DNA from: Desulfonatronospira sp.
GTDB lineage: Bacteria > Desulfobacterota > Desulfovibrionia > Desulfovibrionales > Desulfonatronovibrionaceae
Assembly (NCBI GenBank): GCA_003563255.1
Contig: PWSL01000247.1
Span: 1-18,029 of the forward strand
Length of the DNA stretch: 18,029 nt
Direction of reading: 5' to 3'
This document shows, piece by piece, positions 220 to 16,356 of the stretch. The position numbers and the translations under genes were made by a program. The notes beneath the pieces are model-generated. The model saw only the letters and a list, made by a program, of their open reading frames with translations. It did not search any database and had not been told where the DNA came from. The number at the start of each line of letters is the position of its first letter. The first letter of the stretch is position 1.

Positions 220-1428
220 ATGCCAGAATTCAAACCATTGCATTTTTACAGTTACGATTGGTCCCGCAGTGATATTGATGCGGAACAGGTTATTTCTCCA
301 CCCTACGATGTACTTTCCAGTGATGACATTCAGACCCTGTCCCGGAATAAGTACAATGTGGTGCACATCGACTCTCCTGACAGCTACGACACCGCCAGGG
401 AACTCCTGCAGAAGTGGATTCAACAGGAAGTACTGACAATTGATGAACAGCCCCGTTTTTACATCCTGGCCTCGGAGTACCGCACCCACGGCAAATCCCG
501 CACCCGCTGGGGCATCATGGGCGGGCTCAGGCTGGAACCATTCGGGCACAACGTCTTCCCTCACGAAGAAACCTATCCCAAAGCCAAGGAGGACAGGCTG
601 AACCTGATGCAGGCCACCCAGGGGCAGCTAAGCCCTGTATTCGGGGTCTACGACGATCCCGGTCAAAGCGTGGAGACAATCGGGGAAAAATGCCTGGAGC
701 AGGAGCCCTTGATCACCTTTGCGCAGGAAGACGGGGTATTCAACCGCCTGTGGGTGGTGCCTGCTGAATTCAATGACCAGGTACAAAACCTGATCCAGGA
801 TAAAAAAATTTTTATAGCAGACGGACACCACCGCTACGAAACCGCCCTGCAATTCATGCACAATCAGAACCCCGGGGACAGTGCACCCTGGGAGTATATC
901 TTTGTTTACCTGAGTAATATCTCCTCTCCCGGACTGGAGATATTTCCCTATCATCGTACGGTTTCAATGGAAAAAAGATTTGACTGGAAGGCAATCCTGA
1001 ACTCTGCTGGGCAATACTTTGACGTCATCCCCAAGGAAACTCCTGATTTTCTTCAGGAAATGCAGCGCACCGACATGATCATGCTATGCCTGCCTCATAT
1101 TAACTATCTGTTCATCCCCAGGAATCCGGGAAACGATATTTTCGACAGGATAGGCGCCTGGGTCCTGGACAGACTGCTTTTGCGCAAAGTTATGGGAATG
1201 GATGATTCAGAACTGGCATCAGAAAAATACCTGCACTATACCCACGAGGAGGAGCAGACCCTGGAAAAGGTCAAAAAAGGTGAACTGCAGGCTGCTTTTT
1301 TACTTCAGCCCGTGCCCATCAAAATCATGCAGGAAGCCTGCGAAGCCGGGCGGGTCATGCCCAGGAAGTCTACCTTCTTTTATCCCAAGCTGCCTACCGG
1401 CATGCTGTTTTATCTGTGGGGACGATGA
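220..1428 (+). CDS. DUF1015 family protein
   Basis: This 402-residue soluble protein has the hallmarks of the DUF1015 family: an N-terminal VISPPYDV stretch (residues 25-32), a HEETYPKAKEDRL stretch (115-127) and the signature DGHHRYETA (201-209). I see no signal peptide or membrane segment. The start is chosen because the family normally opens a few residues before a PLHFY-type strand, although no strong ribosome site precedes it. The next gene begins 50 bases downstream on the same strand, so the two are probably cotranscribed. The biochemical role is not settled to my knowledge; the conserved His/Arg/Glu cluster suggests an active site, which is inference. Identification as DUF1015 is firm; function is open. 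Confidence 0.88.
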   Translation: MPEFKPLHFYSYDWSRSDIDAEQVISPPYDVLSSDDIQTLSRNKYNVVHIDSPDSYDTARELLQKWIQQEVLTIDEQPRFYILASEYRTHGKSRTRWGIMGGLRLEPFGHNVFPHEETYPKAKEDRLNLMQATQGQLSPVFGVYDDPGQSVETIGEKCLEQEPLITFAQEDGVFNRLWVVPAEFNDQVQNLIQDKKIFIADGHHRYETALQFMHNQNPGDSAPWEYIFVYLSNISSPGLEIFPYHRTVSMEKRFDWKAILNSAGQYFDVIPKETPDFLQEMQRTDMIMLCLPHINYLFIPRNPGNDIFDRIGAWVLDRLLLRKVMGMDDSELASEKYLHYTHEEEQTLEKVKKGELQAAFLLQPVPIKIMQEACEAGRVMPRKSTFFYPKLPTGMLFYLWGR

Positions 1429-1478: not shown

Positions 1479-2774
1479 ATGATCAACCAGCCGGGAGCAT
1501 TACGCGTTTCTGACAAACCGGATGGGGACAGTCCCGAAGCCGGGGACAGTCCCCGTACCAAGAGCGTAAAAAACAGTTTTATCCCAAAACAAGCTATGAT
1601 AAATACCTCATGTGTTCAGTTTTCAGAAACGCGTAATGCTCCCAACCAGCCAGCCCCGGATATAGACTTTCTTGTCTCATCCCCTCAAGGTGACCTGCCC
1701 CCGGATGAAAACCGATGGCACCTGCCCCTGGAGGGAGATCAGAACACCATTTCATACAGGGAATACTTTTACGCCATAAGGGACTTCATCCTCCATGACA
1801 GTTCCACCCCCCTGGTGCAGGCGGCCTCGCACATGCTGGATGCCGAGATCGGCCCGCATGATCTGAAAAAAGCTGTAATTCGTTCGGAAAAACACGGTGT
1901 CCATTATCACCCGGCCAGCGTTGAGGCCTTTTACCATCAGGGCCGCATCAAGTGCTGTCTGAACCTGGCCGTACATGAACGCGGCAAAAAACAACTGGAG
2001 CACGAAGCAGGAGTACTCAGGCTGCTTGACCATAAGTTCGGCCTGCCCTACCTGCCCAGACCGTACTTCCAGGGACGGTTCAACTCCATGTTTTTTCTTG
2101 TTGCTGAATGGTTCGAAGGCTGCCACGAATTTCACCTCTCCCTGGACCATGCTGGGCGGCAGAGACTGAAATTGTGGGACTACGATGACGGCCCCAGATT
2201 CCTCCCCCCGGAGCAGTGCTTTGAAATATACAGGCGGATTGCATTCATCCTGACCAGTTATTATGATCCTGAAAGCACCGCCCAGATATATCCCTGGCAT
2301 CACGCCGCCGGGGATTTCGTGGCTGGAATCAGGGAGCAGGAAGGCCTGCCTGCACAGGTCCGGGTCAGGCTGACCACGGCCAGGGGCTACACCTCCCTAG
2401 TGGACATGACAGCCGGCAACCTCAGCGGGTCAATAATCGGATTATTTCACTTCTTTCTGAATCTGACCATCAGGATGCGCCTGGACAGACTGGACGGGGT
2501 GGGGGAGACGGTCTGGGCCGATGACCTGTGCCTGGAAGCATCAGTACAGGGCTTTTTTGACGCTTTGAAAAACAGGCCTGTTTCAGGGTCTCATCTTCCT
2601 TCTGCGGATGTTTTTCTGGAGGTGCTCAAATCCTTCAGCCCCGGAGAACTCAGACGCGCCTGTCCGCCCATCCTTGAAACCTGCCAGGAAATCGAAGACC
2701 TGCCCATAATACTTCCTCACCTTGACGAACACATTGACAAACTGCATACCCTCATTCAGAGTTATGATCTATGA
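1479..2774 (+). CDS. Kinase-like conserved protein with an in-frame miniature-element insertion at its N-terminus
   Basis: I do not recognise a named family for this 431-residue protein. Some motifs resemble an aminoglycoside-phosphotransferase/kinase fold: an Glu-containing helix KQLEHEAGVLRLL (171-183), a hinge-like FFLVAEWFEG (205-214), and YPWHHAAGDFVA (271-282), reminiscent of a catalytic HxxxxD loop. This assignment is inference. Residues 6-58 come from a 151-bp inverted-repeat element plus its 8-bp target duplication (159 bp, 53 codons), so the frame is kept; the uninterrupted ancestor would have read MINQPAPDID. Translation could start at 1479 (weak AAGG upstream) or at an ATG inside the element at 1596. 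The stop overlaps the next start as ATGA. Upstream is DUF1015, so the three plus-strand genes look like an operon. Confidence 0.75.
   Translation: MINQPGALRVSDKPDGDSPEAGDSPRTKSVKNSFIPKQAMINTSCVQFSETRNAPNQPAPDIDFLVSSPQGDLPPDENRWHLPLEGDQNTISYREYFYAIRDFILHDSSTPLVQAASHMLDAEIGPHDLKKAVIRSEKHGVHYHPASVEAFYHQGRIKCCLNLAVHERGKKQLEHEAGVLRLLDHKFGLPYLPRPYFQGRFNSMFFLVAEWFEGCHEFHLSLDHAGRQRLKLWDYDDGPRFLPPEQCFEIYRRIAFILTSYYDPESTAQIYPWHHAAGDFVAGIREQEGLPAQVRVRLTTARGYTSLVDMTAGNLSGSIIGLFHFFLNLTIRMRLDRLDGVGETVWADDLCLEASVQGFFDALKNRPVSGSHLPSADVFLEVLKSFSPGELRRACPPILETCQEIEDLPIILPHLDEHIDKLHTLIQSYDL
1493..1643. mobile_element. 151-bp MITE-like element with 21-bp terminal inverted repeats and 8-bp target duplication
   Basis: The ends are perfect 21-bp inverted repeats starting GGGAGCATTACGCG; the right end reads CGCGTAATGCTCCC. 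The element is flanked directly by AACCAGCC at 1485-1492 and again at 1644-1651, a target duplication of 8 bp. The interior carries two GGGGACAGTCCC-type palindromes (about 1525-1556). It encodes no transposase, so it must be mobilised in trans if still active. Element plus duplication is 159 bp, a multiple of three, and no frame stop occurs in the host gene's frame. Confidence 0.9.
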
Positions 2775-3508
2775 CTGTGAGTTGTTTTCCCAGGGGAATG
2801 GTTCAACCGGAGCAGGGCTTTCGCTTTGCCGTGGATTCATTGCTTTTATCGGTGTTCATTTCCCCAGGAAAAAAGGACAGGATCATGGATCTGGGGTGCG
2901 GCTGCGGAGTAATCGGTCTGGGCCTGCTTCTGGCCCATGTGGACAAGGAACTGCATCTGGTGGGCATTGACAGTGACCCGGAAATGGTAAGGTGTGCCAG
3001 GGAAAACAGCATAAGACTCGGGCTGGAAGAGAAAACCTCATTTATTAATATGGATGCAGCGGACGTGAACAGCCGGACCATGTCAGCGGAAAGCTTTGAC
3101 CTGGTGCTCATGAATCCGCCCTACCGCCGCCCGGGTTCCGGCAGATCCCCTGAACACCACGGAAAAAAGGCGGCCACCTTTGCCCGGGACAACCAGACAG
3201 GGCAATTTCTCAAAGCGGCCGGGTTCGCCTTGAGAAACCTCGGACGGGCGGGAATCGTGTTTCCTGCTTCCAGGCTGGATGAACTGCTGCTGCATTCAAA
3301 CTCCTGCAGGCTAAGACCCAAAATTGTCCGGCCGGTATTGGGACGCCCCGACAAACCTGCCTCTCTGGTCCTGGTCCAGGCCCGCAAGAACGCAGGACAG
3401 GAAATGGTCATCCCCCCGCCCCTGGTGCTCTATGATGAACAAAACGCTCTCACCAGGCAGGCCCGGGAATTCTGCCCTTTCCTGGAGTGCAATCCCGGCA
3501 GGGGGTAA
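2771..3508 (+). CDS. TrmN6-like tRNA1(Val) adenine-N6 methyltransferase
   Basis: This 245-residue SAM-dependent methyltransferase has the cofactor loop DLGCGCGVIG (residues 40-49), an acidic strand end GIDSDP (65-70), and the catalytic NPPY motif (115-118) typical of enzymes acting on exocyclic amines of adenine or glutamine. The N-terminal QGFRFAVDSLLLS stretch (15-27) and the RRPGSGR loop after NPPY fit the TrmN6/YfiC group, which methylates A37 of tRNA1(Val). Length is normal for that group. The start overlaps the previous stop by four bases (ATGA), implying translational coupling. Its TAA at 3506-3508 directly abuts the stop codon of the convergent dsrN. Another N6-adenine or protein-glutamine methyltransferase specificity cannot be excluded. 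Confidence 0.8.
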   Translation: MTVSCFPRGMVQPEQGFRFAVDSLLLSVFISPGKKDRIMDLGCGCGVIGLGLLLAHVDKELHLVGIDSDPEMVRCARENSIRLGLEEKTSFINMDAADVNSRTMSAESFDLVLMNPPYRRPGSGRSPEHHGKKAATFARDNQTGQFLKAAGFALRNLGRAGIVFPASRLDELLLHSNSCRLRPKIVRPVLGRPDKPASLVLVQARKNAGQEMVIPPPLVLYDEQNALTRQAREFCPFLECNPGRG

Positions 3509-5275: not shown

Positions 5276-6439
5276 TTAGAACTTGAAGTTGGTGGTCTGT
5301 CTCCAGGTAAAGTAGGCCGGATCACGGAAATCATCGATAAGGTGATGGGTGAATTCCAGCCCGGTGGCTTCAAAGAAGCGCTCCCAGCCGATACGTTCCG
5401 CCCAGTGTCCGAATCTCTCGTACTTTTTGGCCCCCTTGACATAGGCGTCCACCATTTGGCGCATGCACTTGGCCAGTGAGGGCCAGCGCGGGGTCTCGTT
5501 GGGTATGAAAGCCACTACCACCTTGGAGAACTTGGGCGCGTCGATGCGGTTGGATACCTTGCCGCCGGCCATAATAACCAGACCGTCGCCCTCGGCGTCG
5601 GTCAGAGGCAGGGCCGGGCACATGGTGTAGCAATTGCCGCAGAACATGCAGCGCTCGTTCTTGATGGCCACGGTCTTGACCGATTTTTCCTCGCCTGTCT
5701 TTTTGTCGGTAATGGTTGTCTTTGTAGGACGGATGGCCGCAGTGGGGCAGGCGGCAACAGCCAGAGGGATCTCGCACAGATTATCCACTTCTTCATGATC
5801 GATTGCAGGGGGTTTGCGGTGATAGCCCAGAATGGCGATATCCGAGCAGTGTACGGCCCCGCACATATTCAGACAGCAGGCCATGGAGATCCTCAGCTGG
5901 GCGGGGAACCTCATCTGCCCGAACTCCTCGAAGAGCTCGTCCATGACCACCTTCACCGTTCCTGAAGCGTCCGTGGCCGGGGTATGACAGTGAATCCAGC
6001 CCTGGGTATGTACTATGTTGGTCAGTCCCGCGCCGGTGCCGCCAATGGGGAACTTGAAGCTTCCACCATCGAACTTGCGGCTCACCAGATCATCTTTCAA
6101 GGGCTGGACCTTGTCCTTGTTGTCCACCATAAACTCAATGTTGTTCCTGGTGGTCCAGCGCACATACCCGTCGCAATGCTTGTCCGCGATGTCCAGGACT
6201 TCGCGCAGGGTCTCCACGCTCATGATCCGGGGAGTGCCCACCCGCACGGAGTAGACCTCATCGCCGCTCTCGGCCTTGTGCATGAGCACGCCGGGTTCAA
6301 TGATCTCATGCCAGAGCCATTTGCCCTTGTTGTTTTTGATGACCGGAGGCAAAAACTCCGAATAATGCCTGGGACCGATATCGGAGATTCGGTTTTCCAT
6401 GGGTTTATCGGGATTGTATCCGGATGAAATAAATGCCAT
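5276..6439 (-). CDS. dsrB: Dissimilatory sulfite reductase beta subunit DsrB
   Basis: The 387-residue beta subunit contributes the catalytic siroheme-[4Fe-4S] centre of the A2B2 sulfite reductase in the cytoplasm. Visible ligands are Cys151 (GWIHCH) and the ACCLNMC group, Cys188, 189 and 193, at positions matching D. vulgaris DsrB. An inserted ferredoxin domain carries Cys231 (AACP) and [11 protein letters not shown] (264-274). Conserved basic residues line the sulfite pocket in the family. The start has an excellent AAGGAGGT site and lies 12 bases after the dsrA stop, so A and B are cotranslated from one message. No truncation is seen. Confidence 0.98.
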
Positions 6440-6451
6440 TTTTTTACCTCC

Positions 6452-7765
6452 TTATTTCGGATGACGTGATCTGTAATCAGCGATGTCGCGTTCAAAGCCG
6501 CCGGGCACTTCCTCTTCCTTCCAGAAGATGTAGGGAGTGAACCTGGGATGTTCAACATGCCTGGGATCTGCGGGAATGCCTGTGACTTCCAGCAGTTTCT
6601 GGAAACCCTGGCGCTTCATGGTTTCCCCCAGCCGTTCGCGGTTCTTGCCTTCTTCCATCCACCAATCCCAGATGTTTTCGATTACTTCCTTGATATTGTC
6701 ATAAGGATCTTCCACCTTCATGAATGGAACCAGCAGTGAGCTCATCTGCGCGCCATCCAGGATGGGGGCTTTGGCCCCGGCCAGGATGCTCAGACCGCGG
6801 TCATTTCCAATACGCAGAGCCCTGGGCATGACATTGAGACAATGCATGCACCGGGTGCATTCACGGTCGTTGATTTTGAGCTTGCCGCCTTCCATCCACA
6901 TGCACTTTGTGGGACAAAGGTCAATGACTTCCTTCTGGATATCAAAGGGACCCCAGTCCTTACCGGCGTGAGCACCACCGTTGGGCTTGAGCTCGCCGCC
7001 CACGTATGCGGCGACTGCTTCCTGGTCGATGCGGATGTCGTCGCGCCAGGTGCCGATAAAAGACAGGTCTGAACGGGCTATGGAGGCCACGCAGCCATTG
7101 GGGCAACCGTCGAATTTGAACTTGAACTTGTAGGGGAAGGCCGGCCTGTGCAGCTCGTCCTGGTACTCCATGGTCAACTGGTAGCACAGCTCCTGGGTAT
7201 CAAAGCAGGCCCATTCGCAGCGGGACTCGCCCAGACAGGCTTCTGGAGTGCGCAGGTTGGAGCCTGACCCGCCCAGATCCTGGTTCATATTATGGGTCAG
7301 TTCAAAAAAGATCTCCTCAAGCTGGGGCGTAGTGGTTCCCAGCAGAATGATATCTCCTGTAGAACCGTGCATGTTGGTCACGCCGCTGCCCCGGAAATCC
7401 CAGAGGTCTGCAATCTGGCGCAGAAAATCGGTGTTGTAATACTTCCCGGCGGGCTGGTTGATGCGCATGGTATGGAAATGCGCAACACCGGGAAACTTTT
7501 CCGGCTGGTCGCAGTAGCGTCCGATGACTCCGCCCCCGTAGCCGAAGACGCCGACAATGCCGCCGTGTTTCCAGTGGACTTCCTTTTCAACGTAAGACAG
7601 CTCCAAAAGACCCAGCAGGTCATCCACCACATCCACAGGGATCTGGTACTGAATCTCGCTCTGTTTTTGAGTTCTGGACTCTGCCTGCCTTTTCAGATCA
7701 GACACGAAGCTGGGCCAGGGGCCGCTTTCGAGTTGATCCAGCAAAGGGGTTTCATGTTTAGGCAT
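6452..7765 (-). CDS. dsrA: Dissimilatory sulfite reductase alpha subunit DsrA
   Basis: The 437-residue alpha subunit has exactly the length and cysteine numbering expected from D. vulgaris: Cys177 and Cys183 (ACLGESRC), Cys221 and Cys225 (GCPNGC) for the siroheme-coupled cluster, and a ferredoxin domain with LCPTKC (284-288) and ECTRCMHC (Cys303, 306, 309). With DsrB it carries out reduction of sulfite, the last step of sulfate respiration, handing sulfur to DsrC. A strong AAGGAGGAG site precedes the ATG. Upstream lies a 221-base spacer with a candidate sigma70-type promoter and a CRP-like dyad, consistent with dsrABD-N being its own transcription unit. The reductive type is supported by dsrD and by the lack of dsrEFH in the window. 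Confidence 0.98.
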   Translation of the reverse strand: MPKHETPLLDQLESGPWPSFVSDLKRQAESRTQKQSEIQYQIPVDVVDDLLGLLELSYVEKEVHWKHGGIVGVFGYGGGVIGRYCDQPEKFPGVAHFHTMRINQPAGKYYNTDFLRQIADLWDFRGSGVTNMHGSTGDIILLGTTTPQLEEIFFELTHNMNQDLGGSGSNLRTPEACLGESRCEWACFDTQELCYQLTMEYQDELHRPAFPYKFKFKFDGCPNGCVASIARSDLSFIGTWRDDIRIDQEAVAAYVGGELKPNGGAHAGKDWGPFDIQKEVIDLCPTKCMWMEGGKLKINDRECTRCMHCLNVMPRALRIGNDRGLSILAGAKAPILDGAQMSSLLVPFMKVEDPYDNIKEVIENIWDWWMEEGKNRERLGETMKRQGFQKLLEVTGIPADPRHVEHPRFTPYIFWKEEEVPGGFERDIADYRSRHPK

Positions 7766-11302: not shown

Positions 11303-12463
11303 TCAGGTGGCCTCAATTTCCCGACGCACTCCTATGCCCACCTTCCAGAGAACAGTGATGATCAAAAATCCAATACCATAGATGCCCAGGGTGATGAGTA
11401 TCTCAGGCCCTGATGGAGCATAGGTAAGGACTTCCTTCATGGGAGTGGGGACAAAGCCTGCTGTAATAAGACCCATGCCCTTTTCGATCCAGGTACTGAT
11501 AAGAACCAGGACGCAGGCAAAGGCCAGGATGTTGTCCGCCTGCCGGTTTTTGGGAAAGAGCAGGATGAGCAGGGCTGCGACCCCGGCTGCAGTGGACGCC
11601 CACATGAAGCCGGAGAGCATGGTGTGCCCTTCCAGGCCGAAGTAGAGATATTGCCAGTGGGCCAGCTTGTCCGGGACCATGCTGTATCCGGCGGTGAATA
11701 TCTTACAACCGATGAGAAACAGATATGCGGCCAGAGCATAGGTAACAATCTTGGCCAGGGACTGGATGGCTTCCCGGCCCGGATCCCATTTGGCGAAGAT
11801 CTTCACGGCAAAGGCCAGCAGGATGAGCAGGGCCGGTCCGGCGGCAAAAGCCGAAGCCAGAAAGGACGGAGCCATGGAGGCTGTCAGCCAGAAATCCCGG
11901 CCGGGCAGACCGGCATACAGAAAAGCCGTTACTGTATGGATGCTGATGGCCCAGGGAATGGAGATATAAATAAAGGGCTTGATCCACTTGGGAGGCCCGA
12001 CCCGCTTGCGTTCAGCCTGCAGAGTCACCCAGCCGATAAGAATGTTCAAAAACAGATATCCATTGAGCACCACCATATCCCAGAACAGGACCGAACTGGG
12101 AGTGGGATAAAGAACAACGTTCCATAGCCTCTGTGGCTGGCCCAGGTCCACCACGACAAACAGCAGGCACATGATAATGGTGGCCACGGCCATGAACTCA
12201 CCTAGAATGAGCATCCTGGCGAAAGCCTTATGGTTATGCAGATACATGGGGATGACCATCATGACCGCCGAGGCGGCGACTCCAACCAGGAAGGTCAACT
12301 GGGCAATGTACAGTCCCCAGGAGACGTCCCGGTTCAGGGCGGTCACAGAAAGCCCCTGATCCAGCTGTTGCAGGTAGGCCCCGAAACCCACTCCAATGAC
12401 CGCCAGCAGCACCAGCAGCCATATCCAGTATAAAGCGCTTCCTTTTATTGCTTTCTCGAGCAT
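11303..12463 (-). CDS. dsrP: DsrP, NrfD/PsrC-type membrane quinone-interacting subunit
   Basis: The 386-residue polytopic protein has about ten hydrophobic helices, starting with one near residues 13-33 and ending with one near 352-375, typical of the NrfD/PsrC family. It carries no heme motif. In the DsrMKJOP complex it is thought to exchange electrons with menaquinone and pass them to the periplasmic ferredoxin-like DsrO. The start has AAGGGG upstream and lies 10 bases after the dsrO stop. It is the last gene of the operon, followed by a 36-bp palindrome that fits a terminator. No truncation is apparent. Confidence 0.96.
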   Translation of the reverse strand: MLEKAIKGSALYWIWLLVLLAVIGVGFGAYLQQLDQGLSVTALNRDVSWGLYIAQLTFLVGVAASAVMMVIPMYLHNHKAFARMLILGEFMAVATIIMCLLFVVVDLGQPQRLWNVVLYPTPSSVLFWDMVVLNGYLFLNILIGWVTLQAERKRVGPPKWIKPFIYISIPWAISIHTVTAFLYAGLPGRDFWLTASMAPSFLASAFAAGPALLILLAFAVKIFAKWDPGREAIQSLAKIVTYALAAYLFLIGCKIFTAGYSMVPDKLAHWQYLYFGLEGHTMLSGFMWASTAAGVAALLILLFPKNRQADNILAFACVLVLISTWIEKGMGLITAGFVPTPMKEVLTYAPSGPEILITLGIYGIGFLIITVLWKVGIGVRREIEAT

Positions 12464-12473
12464 TTTACACCCC

Positions 12474-13229
12474 TTAAATTAGATAATAGACTTGTGGGTC
12501 AGTGCCCAGTTTGGGTTTGCGCACCAGAGAGTATCTTTCTCTTAAGACCTTGCGTACATCTGAATTGGGGTCGTTCAAATCCCCGAAAAGGATCGCACCC
12601 TCGGATGCCTCAACACAGGCTGGCATATCCCCCTGATCCAGAAGATGAGCACAAAACTCACACTTTTCTACGACTCCCATTTCCCTGGTGGGATAGTCAT
12701 GAACCAGCTGGTCATCATCCAGAAAATTTCTGGGGTTGAAGTAATTAAAGCTCCTGGAGCCGTAGGGGCAGCCCGCCATACAGAAACGGCAGCCTATGCA
12801 GCGGTGGAAATCCATGAGTACAATCCCGTCATCACGGGAGAAAGTGGCCTGAGTGGGACATACCCGCACGCACGGGGGATTGTCGCAGTGGTTGCAGAGA
12901 GAAAGAAAAGGGATGCTTTTCTTGTCTTTGAGGTAACCATGAGACTGGTCATGGAACAGATTGTAGAAAGGCTCCTTCCAGATCCACTTGATATTTTGAT
13001 CATTGGGAATGTCAGGCACATTGTGCAGCTTGTGGCAGGCCTCTATGCACTTATCCATGAGCTCATCATTGAGTTTTTCTGAGTCTATTACCATAGCCCA
13101 GCGCTCAGCCCTGAGCCTGTCTGCACTCTGTCTGGGTCCTGACCTGGCGCCGGCCAGGGAAGGACAGATGCTCCAGCCCAGTGCCGCCATCCCCGCAAAC
13201 TTGATGAATTTTCTTCTGCTGTTTTTCAT
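12474..13229 (-). CDS. dsrO: DsrO, periplasmic Tat-exported ferredoxin-like subunit
   Basis: The 251-residue protein begins with a twin-arginine signal (SRRKFIK, residues 4-10, then a hydrophobic stretch and an AGA cleavage-like site), so it is exported folded with its clusters. Thirteen cysteines follow in ferredoxin patterns: 61 and 65; CNHCDNPPCVRVC (112-124); CIGCRFCMAGC (144-154); and CEFC with Cys205 (190-205). That is enough for three [4Fe-4S] clusters. In the complex it links the triheme cytochrome DsrJ and the membrane subunit DsrP. It starts 11 bases after the dsrJ stop, with a G-rich ribosome site. Confidence 0.96.
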   Translation of the reverse strand: MKNSRRKFIKFAGMAALGWSICPSLAGARSGPRQSADRLRAERWAMVIDSEKLNDELMDKCIEACHKLHNVPDIPNDQNIKWIWKEPFYNLFHDQSHGYLKDKKSIPFLSLCNHCDNPPCVRVCPTQATFSRDDGIVLMDFHRCIGCRFCMAGCPYGSRSFNYFNPRNFLDDDQLVHDYPTREMGVVEKCEFCAHLLDQGDMPACVEASEGAILFGDLNDPNSDVRKVLRERYSLVRKPKLGTDPQVYYLI

Positions 13230-13240
13230 TATTATCCCCC

Positions 13241-13612
13241 CTAAGGCTCGATGTGGCAGTCCCAGCAGTAAGGATCCACCGCTGTGGCGTTATGGCAGCG
13301 GTCGCAAAACTCTTCCTTGTCGCTGTGACAATACATACAGGTTTTGGTCAGGCTCATGGGATAGCTTTCCTGCTTGAGCTCGCTCCAGTACTCCTGATAC
13401 CCCTCACGCACGTAGAGGTCGCGCCATTCATCGAGCATGTTCATGTGCTCGGCGCGCATGAACTCCGTGCTCTCTATACACCTTTCGTAGTCTTCCGGGA
13501 GTTCCAGTTCCGGGGTGGAATAGGCTTCAGCCCCGAGATTGTACCAGAAGGGAAAGGTCATGAACAGGGCGAATATGATCAGCCCCGGAATGATCTTATT
13601 GGCATCGTACAT
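13241..13612 (-). CDS. dsrJ: DsrJ, triheme cytochrome c
   Basis: The 123-residue protein has an N-terminal hydrophobic segment (residues 8-24), probably an uncleaved anchor, and three CxxCH heme sites at the C-terminus: CMYCH (92-96), CDRCH (103-107) and CWDCH (116-120). Cys45 in PEDYERCIES is at the position of the cysteine that gives the unusual His/Cys heme ligation reported for DsrJ of sulfur oxidisers. The start codon overlaps the dsrK stop by one base (TAATG), with AAGGAGG just before it, showing tight coupling. It faces the periplasm and may feed electrons into or out of the complex. Confidence 0.96.
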   Translation of the reverse strand: MYDANKIIPGLIIFALFMTFPFWYNLGAEAYSTPELELPEDYERCIESTEFMRAEHMNMLDEWRDLYVREGYQEYWSELKQESYPMSLTKTCMYCHSDKEEFCDRCHNATAVDPYCWDCHIEP

Positions 13613-15228
13613 TATTCATCCTCCTTACCAGGCAAAGGTTCACCCCGCAGGTCGGTCTGACGATCCTCCCCGGGAAGAATCAAGGCGTTGGCCAGCAGCT
13701 CATGCACCCCGCATACGCCTACGTCCGGCACCCAGTATTCCATGGAGGCGCTCAGGGTGGCCCTGTCGATTGCGCATACATTGGCCAGGGTATTGACCCC
13801 CTTCCTGTCGCGTACAAACTTGACAGCATTGGCCCTGGGCAGACCGCCCATCATCCTGAGTTCTTCGTTTTCCCCGGGATTCAGCCCTGATCCGGCGCCG
13901 CAGCAGAATGTCTGCTCCTTGATGGTCCCTTCGGGCATCTCATAGAAGTGGTTGCAGACATTATTAATGACATACCTGGGTTCTTCCAGAAATCCCATAC
14001 CCCGGGAGGGGTTGCAGGAATCGTGAAAGGTGACCTTGAGATGATCGTTGCGGGACTTGTCCAGAGGAAGCTTCTTGTGCTTGATGAGATCGGCCACGAA
14101 TTCCACGATATGGATCATCTTGGTGGAGGCTGCATGATCAAACCTGGTCCCGGTAATGGGAGAAACAGGCACCTCCAGAAACTCCGGAGGGCCGTTCATG
14201 GTGTCCATATACTGATGCAGTACACGCCACATATGCCCACACTCGCCACCCAGGATCCATTTCACGCCCAGGCGCTCGGCTTCGTGATACATCTTGGCGT
14301 TTAGCTTTTTCATCATCTCATGGGAGGTGAAAAAGCCGAAGTTCCCGCCTTCCGAGGCATAGGTGCTCCAGGTGATGTCCATGCCGTACTCTTCCTGCAG
14401 GTAATGAAAAAGTATCAGGTAGCCCATGCAGGTAAAGATGCCGGGCTCTGCGAACACGTCTCCTGATGGGGTAATAAAAAGTATGTCCGCGCCCTTCTTG
14501 TTGAAGGTGGGCTCGGGTTTGATCCCGGTGGCCTCCTCAATATCATCGCAGAGAAAGTCGATGTTGTCCTTGAAGGTATGCGGAGGCAGGCCCAGATGGT
14601 TGCCCAGGCGGTTGCAATTGGCCACCGGCTTGCCGATCCATTCCGTCTGCAGTCCCAGCAAATTCAGAAGCTCCCGGCCGATGATGGTGATCTCGGCCTG
14701 GTCAATGCCGTAGGGACAGTAGACAGAACAGCGCCTGCACTCGGTACACTGGTAGTAGTAATACCAGATTTCCTTTAAGACCTTTTCGTTGAGTTCGCGT
14801 CCTCCGGCCATGCGTCCCAGGATCTGGCCGGCTTTGGTCATTTCACCGCGGTATACCGAGCGCAGGAGCTCAGCCCTAAGCACAGGCATATTCTTGGGAT
14901 CTCCGGAGCCGATGAAGAAATGGCACTTGTCGGCGCAGGCTCCGCAGCGCACGCAGATATCCATGAATACCTTGAAAGAGCGAAACCTTTGCAGCCTGTC
15001 CTTCATGCCCTCCAGAAATGTTTCCTTCCAGTTTGCAGGAAGCTTCCAGTCTTCGTCCGTGGGATTCCAGCTCCTGGCATTGGGCATGCCTACCGCTTCC
15101 AGGGATGCTGCATCCGCAGAATAACAGTACCTGCCGGGCTTTATCTCCAGAGGTACATCCATCCAGTCCAGCTCAGGCGGATGGTGACTGATATTTCTGT
15201 ACAGTACATCCGGTTTTGGTGTAGCCAT
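13612..15228 (-). CDS. dsrK: DsrK, HdrD-like catalytic Fe-S subunit
   Basis: The 538-residue cytoplasmic subunit has two [4Fe-4S] motifs, CVRCGACADKC (92-102) and CTECRRCSVYCP (161-172). The C-terminal CCG-type region has Cys330 (GGECGH), Cys405 (HDSCNP) and Cys442-443 (FCCGAGSG), the set expected for the special noncubane-type cluster of HdrD/DsrK enzymes. It is the proposed reductase of the DsrC trisulfide, or oxidised DsrC, made by sulfite reductase. AAGGAG precedes the ATG, which lies six bases after the dsrM stop. The next gene overlaps its stop by one base. Confidence 0.97.
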   Translation of the reverse strand: MATPKPDVLYRNISHHPPELDWMDVPLEIKPGRYCYSADAASLEAVGMPNARSWNPTDEDWKLPANWKETFLEGMKDRLQRFRSFKVFMDICVRCGACADKCHFFIGSGDPKNMPVLRAELLRSVYRGEMTKAGQILGRMAGGRELNEKVLKEIWYYYYQCTECRRCSVYCPYGIDQAEITIIGRELLNLLGLQTEWIGKPVANCNRLGNHLGLPPHTFKDNIDFLCDDIEEATGIKPEPTFNKKGADILFITPSGDVFAEPGIFTCMGYLILFHYLQEEYGMDITWSTYASEGGNFGFFTSHEMMKKLNAKMYHEAERLGVKWILGGECGHMWRVLHQYMDTMNGPPEFLEVPVSPITGTRFDHAASTKMIHIVEFVADLIKHKKLPLDKSRNDHLKVTFHDSCNPSRGMGFLEEPRYVINNVCNHFYEMPEGTIKEQTFCCGAGSGLNPGENEELRMMGGLPRANAVKFVRDRKGVNTLANVCAIDRATLSASMEYWVPDVGVCGVHELLANALILPGEDRQTDLRGEPLPGKEDE

Positions 15229-15234
15229 TATCGT

Positions 15235-16308
15235 TTACTCCTTCTTTTCAGCATTTTCATCTGGGGTTTCATCTCCGGAAGCTTCCTCAGCCTTTTCCTC
15301 CAGAGGCTTTTCCACCGGCAGCCCGGACTCGACCATCACTGCCCTGTTTTCGTCTTCATAAGACTGATAACTATGGAACTTCACCGGATAATTCCAGGGA
15401 TTTTCATGATGTTTTTCGCGGCTGTCATTGGGAAGGTTCCTGGTGGGGCTCAGGAATACACCGCCCAGATGCATAAGCTTGCTGAAGGGAAAATAAATGA
15501 GCAGCACAGAGACCAGGAACAGATGCACAAAGAAAGTGGTGCCGATTCCCTCGGGCACTGTGGGACTGAACTGAACCAGGCCCATGGCCAGCTCCTTCAC
15601 CGGCATGAGATCTGTCTTAAAGGCCCCGATATAGCGCATCAGCATGCCCGAAATTACGATCCCGATAATGAGAAAGAGGGGAAAGTAATCCGCCGGCTGG
15701 GAGATATAGCGTACAGTAGGTACCAGCAGCCTTCTCAGGAGCAGGTAGCCCAGGGCCACCAGAATGAGTACGCTTGAAAGGTAAAGAGCCGGGCTTAAGA
15801 TCTGGAACATGCTGTCCATGTGATCCATGGTCACGAAAATCTCCGGAACCGGCTCAGTGAAAAACCGCATGTGACGGAGAAAAATCACCAGGAAAGTGTA
15901 GTGAAATATCAGGGCGAAAATCCACAGCCACTTGCTGGAAGAGTAGGCGATGTGGGGTCCCTGATGCAGTTCCACCTTGGTATTGCGGAACAGGGAGCGA
16001 AAAAGGAAGACTTCAAAGAACATGCGGCCCACAACCCCCAGTTTGGTCCCCGGATTGTCCAGCCTGTTCCACTTGTCCTTGAACATGGGCAATGACTTTC
16101 TGGCCTGCCCGCAGGTTGTAGGTATGCGAAACGGCACCGGGGTCTTTCCCCATTGGACCACCCTGACCACAAAGCCCACGATAAATACCAGAACCGCCAC
16201 ATAAGGTATGATTACTCCGAAAAGAGCTCCCATCCCCATGGCTCCGGCGCCTATCATGGCGATCAAGATCAGGGCTACAACCAGAATCAGTGAATAAATC
16301 GCTTTCAT
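15235..16308 (-). CDS. dsrM: DsrM, NarI-like cytochrome b membrane subunit
   Basis: The 357-residue protein has about six membrane helices, two near the N-terminus and four between about residues 125 and 280, with histidines at helix ends (FHYTF, LRHM, FVHLF, LMHLG) fit to bind two b hemes, as in the NarI-like family. It oxidises menaquinol and passes electrons to DsrK. A charged, Glu-rich tail of about 60 residues faces the cytoplasm. A longer reading begins at TTG (16317), but GAGG would then touch the start codon; the ATG at 16308 is nine bases from GAGG and is preferred. The RsbRD_N-type gene ends 48 bases upstream. Confidence 0.95.
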   Translation of the reverse strand: MKAIYSLILVVALILIAMIGAGAMGMGALFGVIIPYVAVLVFIVGFVVRVVQWGKTPVPFRIPTTCGQARKSLPMFKDKWNRLDNPGTKLGVVGRMFFEVFLFRSLFRNTKVELHQGPHIAYSSSKWLWIFALIFHYTFLVIFLRHMRFFTEPVPEIFVTMDHMDSMFQILSPALYLSSVLILVALGYLLLRRLLVPTVRYISQPADYFPLFLIIGIVISGMLMRYIGAFKTDLMPVKELAMGLVQFSPTVPEGIGTTFFVHLFLVSVLLIYFPFSKLMHLGGVFLSPTRNLPNDSREKHHENPWNYPVKFHSYQSYEDENRAVMVESGLPVEKPLEEKAEEASGDETPDENAEKKE

Positions 16309-16356
16309 GTGCTGCAACCTCTTTTAAAGATTAGACATTATACAAAAAACCATAAA

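Follow-up and report, generated by a model that had tools for sequence, protein, structure and literature searches.

In-frame fusions through intragenic MITEs are not unusual according to the part of PMC10969869 drawn on here, in which the Rickettsia elements were described as producing such fusions unusually often. The same part (PMC10969869) placed nearly half of the palindromic elements of R. conorii and 11 of 12 homologues elsewhere in genes, and attributed a conserved peptide to each element. Another described system is QMITE2 of Coxiella burnetii, which in the portion of PMC5896051 considered here, including part of its Table 1, was 150-190 bp long and had a REP core, inverted ends measuring 17-29 bp, and 7-13 bp duplications that mostly differed from site to site. 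QMITE2 copies were mainly intergenic or 3' of genes and sometimes in frame, one of them giving a C-terminal extension of 33 residues, and in the same portion of the Coxiella study no gene of known function was found with a QMITE at its 5' end (PMC5896051).

The MITE described here lay in the window, that is, the whole stretch of 18,029 nucleotides that was analysed, and its features are collected in Table 1. Its likeness to QMITE2 was one of kind, by description, and comprised a similar size, inverted ends, duplications, a REP core and gene-edge insertions; the differences from that portion of the Coxiella study were the other host and phylum, the position at a 5' gene end and an ISKra4-type partner (PMC5896051). 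Similar to the Rickettsia palindromic elements, the MITE was about 150 bp long, palindromic and able to extend a protein in frame, whereas those elements are often in genes and the present MITE family avoided genes (PMC10969869, same part). In-frame MITE capture is already known in kind, with QMITE2 as the closest case, and the present MITE is an instance at the 5' edge of a gene. Among the matches listed in a literature search we found no publication on MITEs in Desulfonatron- genera, which is no proof that none is in print.

The ends of the element (GGGAGCATTACGCGTTTCTGA) were perfect inverted copies over 21 bp, with arms that reached 24 nt at 96%. On both sides it was flanked by an 8-bp target duplication, AACCAGCC. 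This confirmed the 151-bp element with perfect 21-bp ends and an 8-bp duplication that an earlier note on this DNA had reported; the element occupied 1493-1643. Element and duplication together amounted to 159 bp, or 53 codons, and the frame was open from the ATG at 1479 to the stop ending at 2774 with no interruption, as also claimed there. The insertion point was five codons into an intact gene of 431 codons. The element was short, lacked a transposase gene, had terminal inverted repeats (TIRs) and target duplications, and occurred in many copies at different sites, as is characteristic of a MITE. It was not a chance pattern, given 18 TIR ends at up to three mismatches in its own genome versus 0 for a reversed control pattern, a fold far more stable than that of shuffled sequences and an ungapped empty site in a relative. 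Rfam gave no match at the gathering threshold in 1300-1900, and at the sensitivity used the element was found neither in plasmid and phage collections (blastn) nor in viral contigs (exact 20-mers).

Table 1. Features of the insertion locus; positions refer to the window.
Feature	Positions	Strand	Basis
MITE, 151 bp, in frame	1493..1643	+	TIRs, duplication, BLAST matches in own genome
Left terminal inverted repeat, 21 bp	1493..1513	+	18 ends in own genome
Right terminal inverted repeat, 21 bp	1623..1643	-	18 ends in own genome
Target duplication, left copy (AACCAGCC)	1485..1492	+	
Target duplication, right copy (AACCAGCC)	1644..1651	+	
REP-like core hairpin, two GGGGACAGTCCC units	1524..1554	+	folding, core motif search
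ATG, most likely start; position conserved in uninserted homologues	1479..1481	+	
Element-borne in-frame ATG, possible alternative start, 392-residue product	1596..1598	+	
431-codon gene with insertion; hypothetical protein, weakly kinase-like fold	1479..2774	+	
Upstream gene, DUF1015 (PF06245)	220..1428	+	
Downstream methyltransferase gene, 4-bp overlap with stop of inserted gene	2771..3508	+	

The nearest relative, Desulfonatronospira sp. MAG T1Sed10_59, had a gene whose body was 87% identical; over the empty site it aligned with no gap, beginning MIYQTAQDTVFLVSS. An uninserted protein of 378 residues (P0002) began with MINQPAPDIDFLVSS, i.e., MINQPAPDID, and thereby matched letter for letter the pre-insertion start that the earlier note had reconstructed; it differed from the window protein minus its insert at 49 positions. 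In the protein search, 7996 candidates were scored and 2309 homologues reported, of which the best 120 were examined, one of them being the query's own cluster. None of the best alignments of the remaining 119 homologues began before query residue 54, and nothing was found among them with the insert alone as query. The possibility that orthologues all carry the same 53 residues was thus ruled out among these 119 of the best 120 of 2309. The query's cluster was represented by a database protein of 431 residues (P0001) with the same insert and an identical body, and its one difference from the window protein, D12E, fell inside the insert.

The reading frame constrained where translation can begin. 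An in-frame stop lay upstream at 1464 with no start between it and 1479, and from there the in-frame ATG, GTG or TTG codons were at 1479, 1596 (in the element), 1815 (a GTG) and 1833, the latter two both within the conserved part. Uninserted homologues had their starts within a few residues of the position corresponding to 1479. A start downstream of the element, which would have removed the insert from the protein, was therefore ruled out for canonical starts, since the next one after 1596 was already in the conserved part. The canonical starts would give a product 53 (from 1479) or 14 (from 1596) residues longer than the uninserted protein, and if translation began at 1596 the element would contribute 16 residues, numbered 40-55 in the long form. 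We favoured 1479 since the native start and the first 14 bases were untouched. The statement that the protein is lengthened by 53 residues held for the gene model, which was longer by 53 in frame, and from this frame we infer that the tail is translated as part of the protein. An AlphaFold2 model (34 sequences) had pLDDT values below 50 for exactly residues 1-53, part of this drop being expected since no other alignment row covered the insert, and values of 72-98 in ten-residue blocks from residue 61. The 53-residue N-terminal tail was accordingly predicted to be disordered.

The label of a kinase-like gene, given in the earlier note, could be kept only as a weak one. The protein matched no Pfam family, and Foldseek against the PDB returned mostly protein-kinase folds with a best E-value of 1.4e-5 and TM-scores by query length of 0.22-0.31 (best 50 rows). 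A comparison of the gene body between the window and T1Sed10_59 gave a dN/dS of 0.20 over 373 codons; the body was under constraint, although most of what this ratio records predates the insertion. An overlap of 4 bp with the downstream gene suggests a coupling that an out-of-frame insertion would break. Elsewhere in the window, at 5276-7765 and 11303-16317, the ORF translations resembled, by eye, those of a dissimilatory sulfite reductase and a Dsr membrane complex, which fits a sulfate reducer.

The element belonged to a sizeable family. In its own genome (G000; 3.52 Mb, 532 contigs) there were at least 30 BLAST matches, ends and fragments included, with 40 of 202 first-look candidates scored, and about ten other copies besides that of the window. 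Matching ends were present at up to two mismatches in 5 of 18 genomes of the taxonomic family, at up to one mismatch in 9 of 348 genomes (3 of 59 genera) of the order, and in 3 of 395 genomes (2 of 246 genera) of a phylum sample; a single genome, G008, had 142 of them (up to two mismatches). A third genus of the order contained relatives of 262-295 bp with the same ends and duplications of 8-9 bp. Near-identical ends were seen in scattered genera (G000, G008, G043-G046, G526 and G666), including one further genus outside the order. Horizontal spread is likely. Judging from their names, the carrier genera presumably share an alkaline habitat, which is our guess.

Copies were collected from the window and 80 further stretches, 60 of them from G008 (among the ends listed) and 20 from G000, G006, G009 and G012. 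These yielded 69 candidate pairs of ends under 230 bp apart, a few of which were alternative pairings of one copy. Similar to QMITE2, they had a REP-like core, of the window-copy type in 58 of the 69, duplications of 7-11 bp and insertions at gene edges. A duplication with at most one mismatch was present in 42 of the 69, with lengths of 8 bp (n=29), 9 bp (n=9), 11 bp (n=2), 10 bp (n=1) and 7 bp (n=1); the tests of context and frame were confined to these 42, which excluded the other 27 pairs.

A candidate autonomous partner was found in G666, a genome from another genus of the phylum. It contained an element of 2406-2415 bp with the same duplication length, bounded by near-identical ends that had 20/21 (left) and 18/21 (right) bases in common with those of the MITE. 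Its first gene matched DruA (PF14236, E 1.1e-31) and its second the ISKra4 family transposase model NF033572 (NCBIfam; 247.7 bits, cut-off 205). Duplications of 8 bp flanked two of the three bounded copies (ATATAATC, TATTCGTG), the third had none, and a fourth left end was without a right end in the stretch examined. Thus, this ISKra4-family IS resembled the MITE in its ends and 8-bp duplications, and differed from it in that the MITE had no transposase. Locus L274 and its sister copies L273 and L275 were ISKra4-family ISs in which a DruA-type (PF14236) accessory gene adjoined the transposase gene.

The transposase had matches in 7 of 23 genomes. No complete close relative of it was seen in G000, which encoded a fragment (76% identity across 42 residues) at the end of a contig, overlapping a piece in another frame, as well as a distant homologue, 26% identical, in an open frame of 505 codons; no MITE-type ends surrounded either one in the stretches examined of this 532-contig draft. 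In G008, a 35-residue transposase match was located directly beside a MITE copy. When the IS was compared with the fetched loci by blastn, the MITE match was confined to an end (25 bp in L124) and the other matches were transposase remnants. Judging by the ends and the duplication length, rather than by activity, trans-mobilisation by an ISKra4-type transposase is the best-supported source of the MITE.

Other candidates were considered and set aside. Transposases of the IS4 type (PF01609) and ISL3 (PF01610) had no convincing matching ends in 33 loci from 7 genomes, and an IS1634-like element (L201, named by eye) had an end with three mismatches on one side only. In loci L069-L148 no two TIRs spaced 450-4000 bp apart were flanked by a duplication, the ORFs adjoining single TIR ends included no transposase by eye, and the exact core motif occurred in none of 14 loci with REP-associated tyrosine transposases (PF01797) from two genomes.

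We considered it most probable (at about 0.82) that a non-autonomous ISKra4-type MITE inserted in frame and was passively tolerated, so that the original protein gained a disordered tail at its N-terminus. The MITE would have entered codons 3-5 of a conserved gene in a sulfate-reducing bacterium near Desulfonatronospira, duplicating 8 bp of the target, and was most likely moved in trans by an ISKra4-family transposase recognising the GGGAGCATTACGCGTTTCT ends. The copy would have been kept since it did little harm: its 53 codons brought no stop into the frame, the native start region was left as it was, and the protein begins to fold only after the added residues. The insertion was probably neutral.

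A small share of probability went to an effect at the level of RNA or regulation, in which the stem or the ATG of the element alters how the operon is translated or processed by RNase III, the extra residues being incidental. The element transcript folded into one long stem that included the REP-like hairpin, with an energy of -87.1 kcal/mol; dinucleotide shuffles had a mean of -56.7 and an sd of 5.0 (z = -6.15), and 0 of 200 were as good. Counted from the A of the start codon, this stem began 14 nt downstream, where an effect on expression is possible, and the in-frame ATG at 1596 would also be consistent with such a role. Moreover, the part of PMC5896051 considered here proposed RNase III processing for QMITE2 at the end of enhC. 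However, no sigma-70-like promoter or terminator-like site was present in 1380-1720, and the gene kept its native start with the first 14 bases unaltered.

The earlier note had compared the element to the Rickettsia palindromic elements, and the corresponding explanation is a protein-coding selfish class that spreads in frame with a conserved open frame. It agreed with the open window copy and with the 151-bp copies, 9 of 12 of which kept a frame open in at least one orientation; however, the 151-bp copies share their descent, so their open frame was not independent evidence. The positions of the copies argued against this explanation. Context was called on the rejoined empty site from open frames and codon scores, which put 38 of the 42 copies with duplications between genes and four in genes. 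Under the same rule, 1860 of 2904 positions drawn at random from these loci (64%) were genic, the sequence being scored as it stands, and 67% and 59% at two other thresholds. Besides the window copy, the genic ones were L120, at about codon 326 of 335 in a gene with a trypsin domain; L133 (3666-3800), where the piece before the element matched UvrD-helicase, the piece after it had no Pfam match and the frame was broken; and L140, in a marginal frame of 129 codons that was broken as well.

Copies at or in other genes ended or broke them. Five frames with at least 80 codons upstream, counting only those with a coding score above 10, ended at the sixth codon of the element, where the TIR read GSITRF-stop or a changed form of it. 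Four of the five (L104, L115, L120 and L156) had Pfam support (Polysacc_synt_2, Fic, Trypsin and GGDEF) and one (L091) had none. The sequences suggest that MITE ends act as ready-made gene terminators. Among 79 copies (the 69 and 10 more), seven frames of at least 100 codons in six loci spanned a copy besides that of the window. Six of them were rejected as genes: they lacked Pfam matches, and their downstream coding scores ranged from -16.5 to 0.8. The seventh, a frame of 383 codons in L157, was the only high scorer, with 24.9 downstream, and as a gene would count against a tolerated insertion. It was rejected as well: it had no Pfam match, the combined length of its element and duplication could not be divided by 3, and the same stretch was covered on the opposite strand by a 254-aa frame that looked by eye like an enoyl-ACP reductase. 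No second credible read-through gene was seen among the 79 copies, and the suggestion that other copies might favour in-frame sites found no support.

The frames of the element itself were not unusually open either. Across the 42 copies in six frames, 24 of 252 frames were open; in 14 of 252 the frame was open and the summed length of copy and duplication was also a multiple of 3. About 6% of such copies landing at random inside a gene would therefore stay in frame. The mean number of open frames was 0.57 per copy, compared with about 0.61 in shuffles of the core of the window copy, and element plus duplication fell into the three residues modulo 3 in 17, 13 and 12 of the 42 copies. According to these statistics, the open frame was luck kept by selection on the host gene rather than a trait of the element. 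A protein-coding selfish class was therefore largely refuted, and the window copy looks like an unusual survivor instead of a new kind of protein-coding element.

Equally improbable was gene decay, with the insertion as one stage on the way to loss: the gene had no match at E<=0.001 in 13 of 18 genomes of the taxonomic family, several of them incomplete, and may therefore be dispensable in Desulfonatronovibrionaceae, but its body was fully open with the low dN/dS given above, P0001 differed from it by a single residue inside the shared insert, and the downstream gene kept its 4-bp overlap.

A possible lead on further palindromic DNA in this family came from a loop before the conserved RLTT motif, which was measured in 97 of the best 120 of 2309 proteins (those in which both flanking motifs were found). 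The loop had 11-12 residues in 54 of them, 16-20 in 13 and 30-80 in 30. The long-loop homologues included P0045, P0052, P0062, P0063, P0066, P0100, P0108 and P0112, and two of those shown were named Nitrospirota and Thermodesulfovibrionales. Several long loops contained GRGLGG, PSPLAGEG or NPVRKG, which we take to be typical of REP-like palindromes; among the best 120 of 2309 proteins, the peptide GRGLG occurred in 7, NPVRK in 8, KGGEG in 7 and LAGEG in 3. It is conceivable, though we rather doubt it, that palindromic DNA has landed in frame in the kinase-like family repeatedly, at two separate flexible sites and in two phyla. Among the inverted repeats inside homologous genes at 34 loci of the phylum, the best ones were chance-like, in a weak test where some loci were scanned off the frame of the gene.

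This locus provides a clean case, with an empty-site relative, of a MITE that has become coding sequence at the 5' edge of a gene. It also corrects an easy over-reading, as a single open copy does not make a protein-coding element. With the family, a probable ISKra4 partner and an uninserted counterpart in hand, the cost of in-frame MITE capture becomes directly measurable. If the kinase-like family did take up palindromic DNA repeatedly, it would be a natural experiment in mobile DNA becoming protein.
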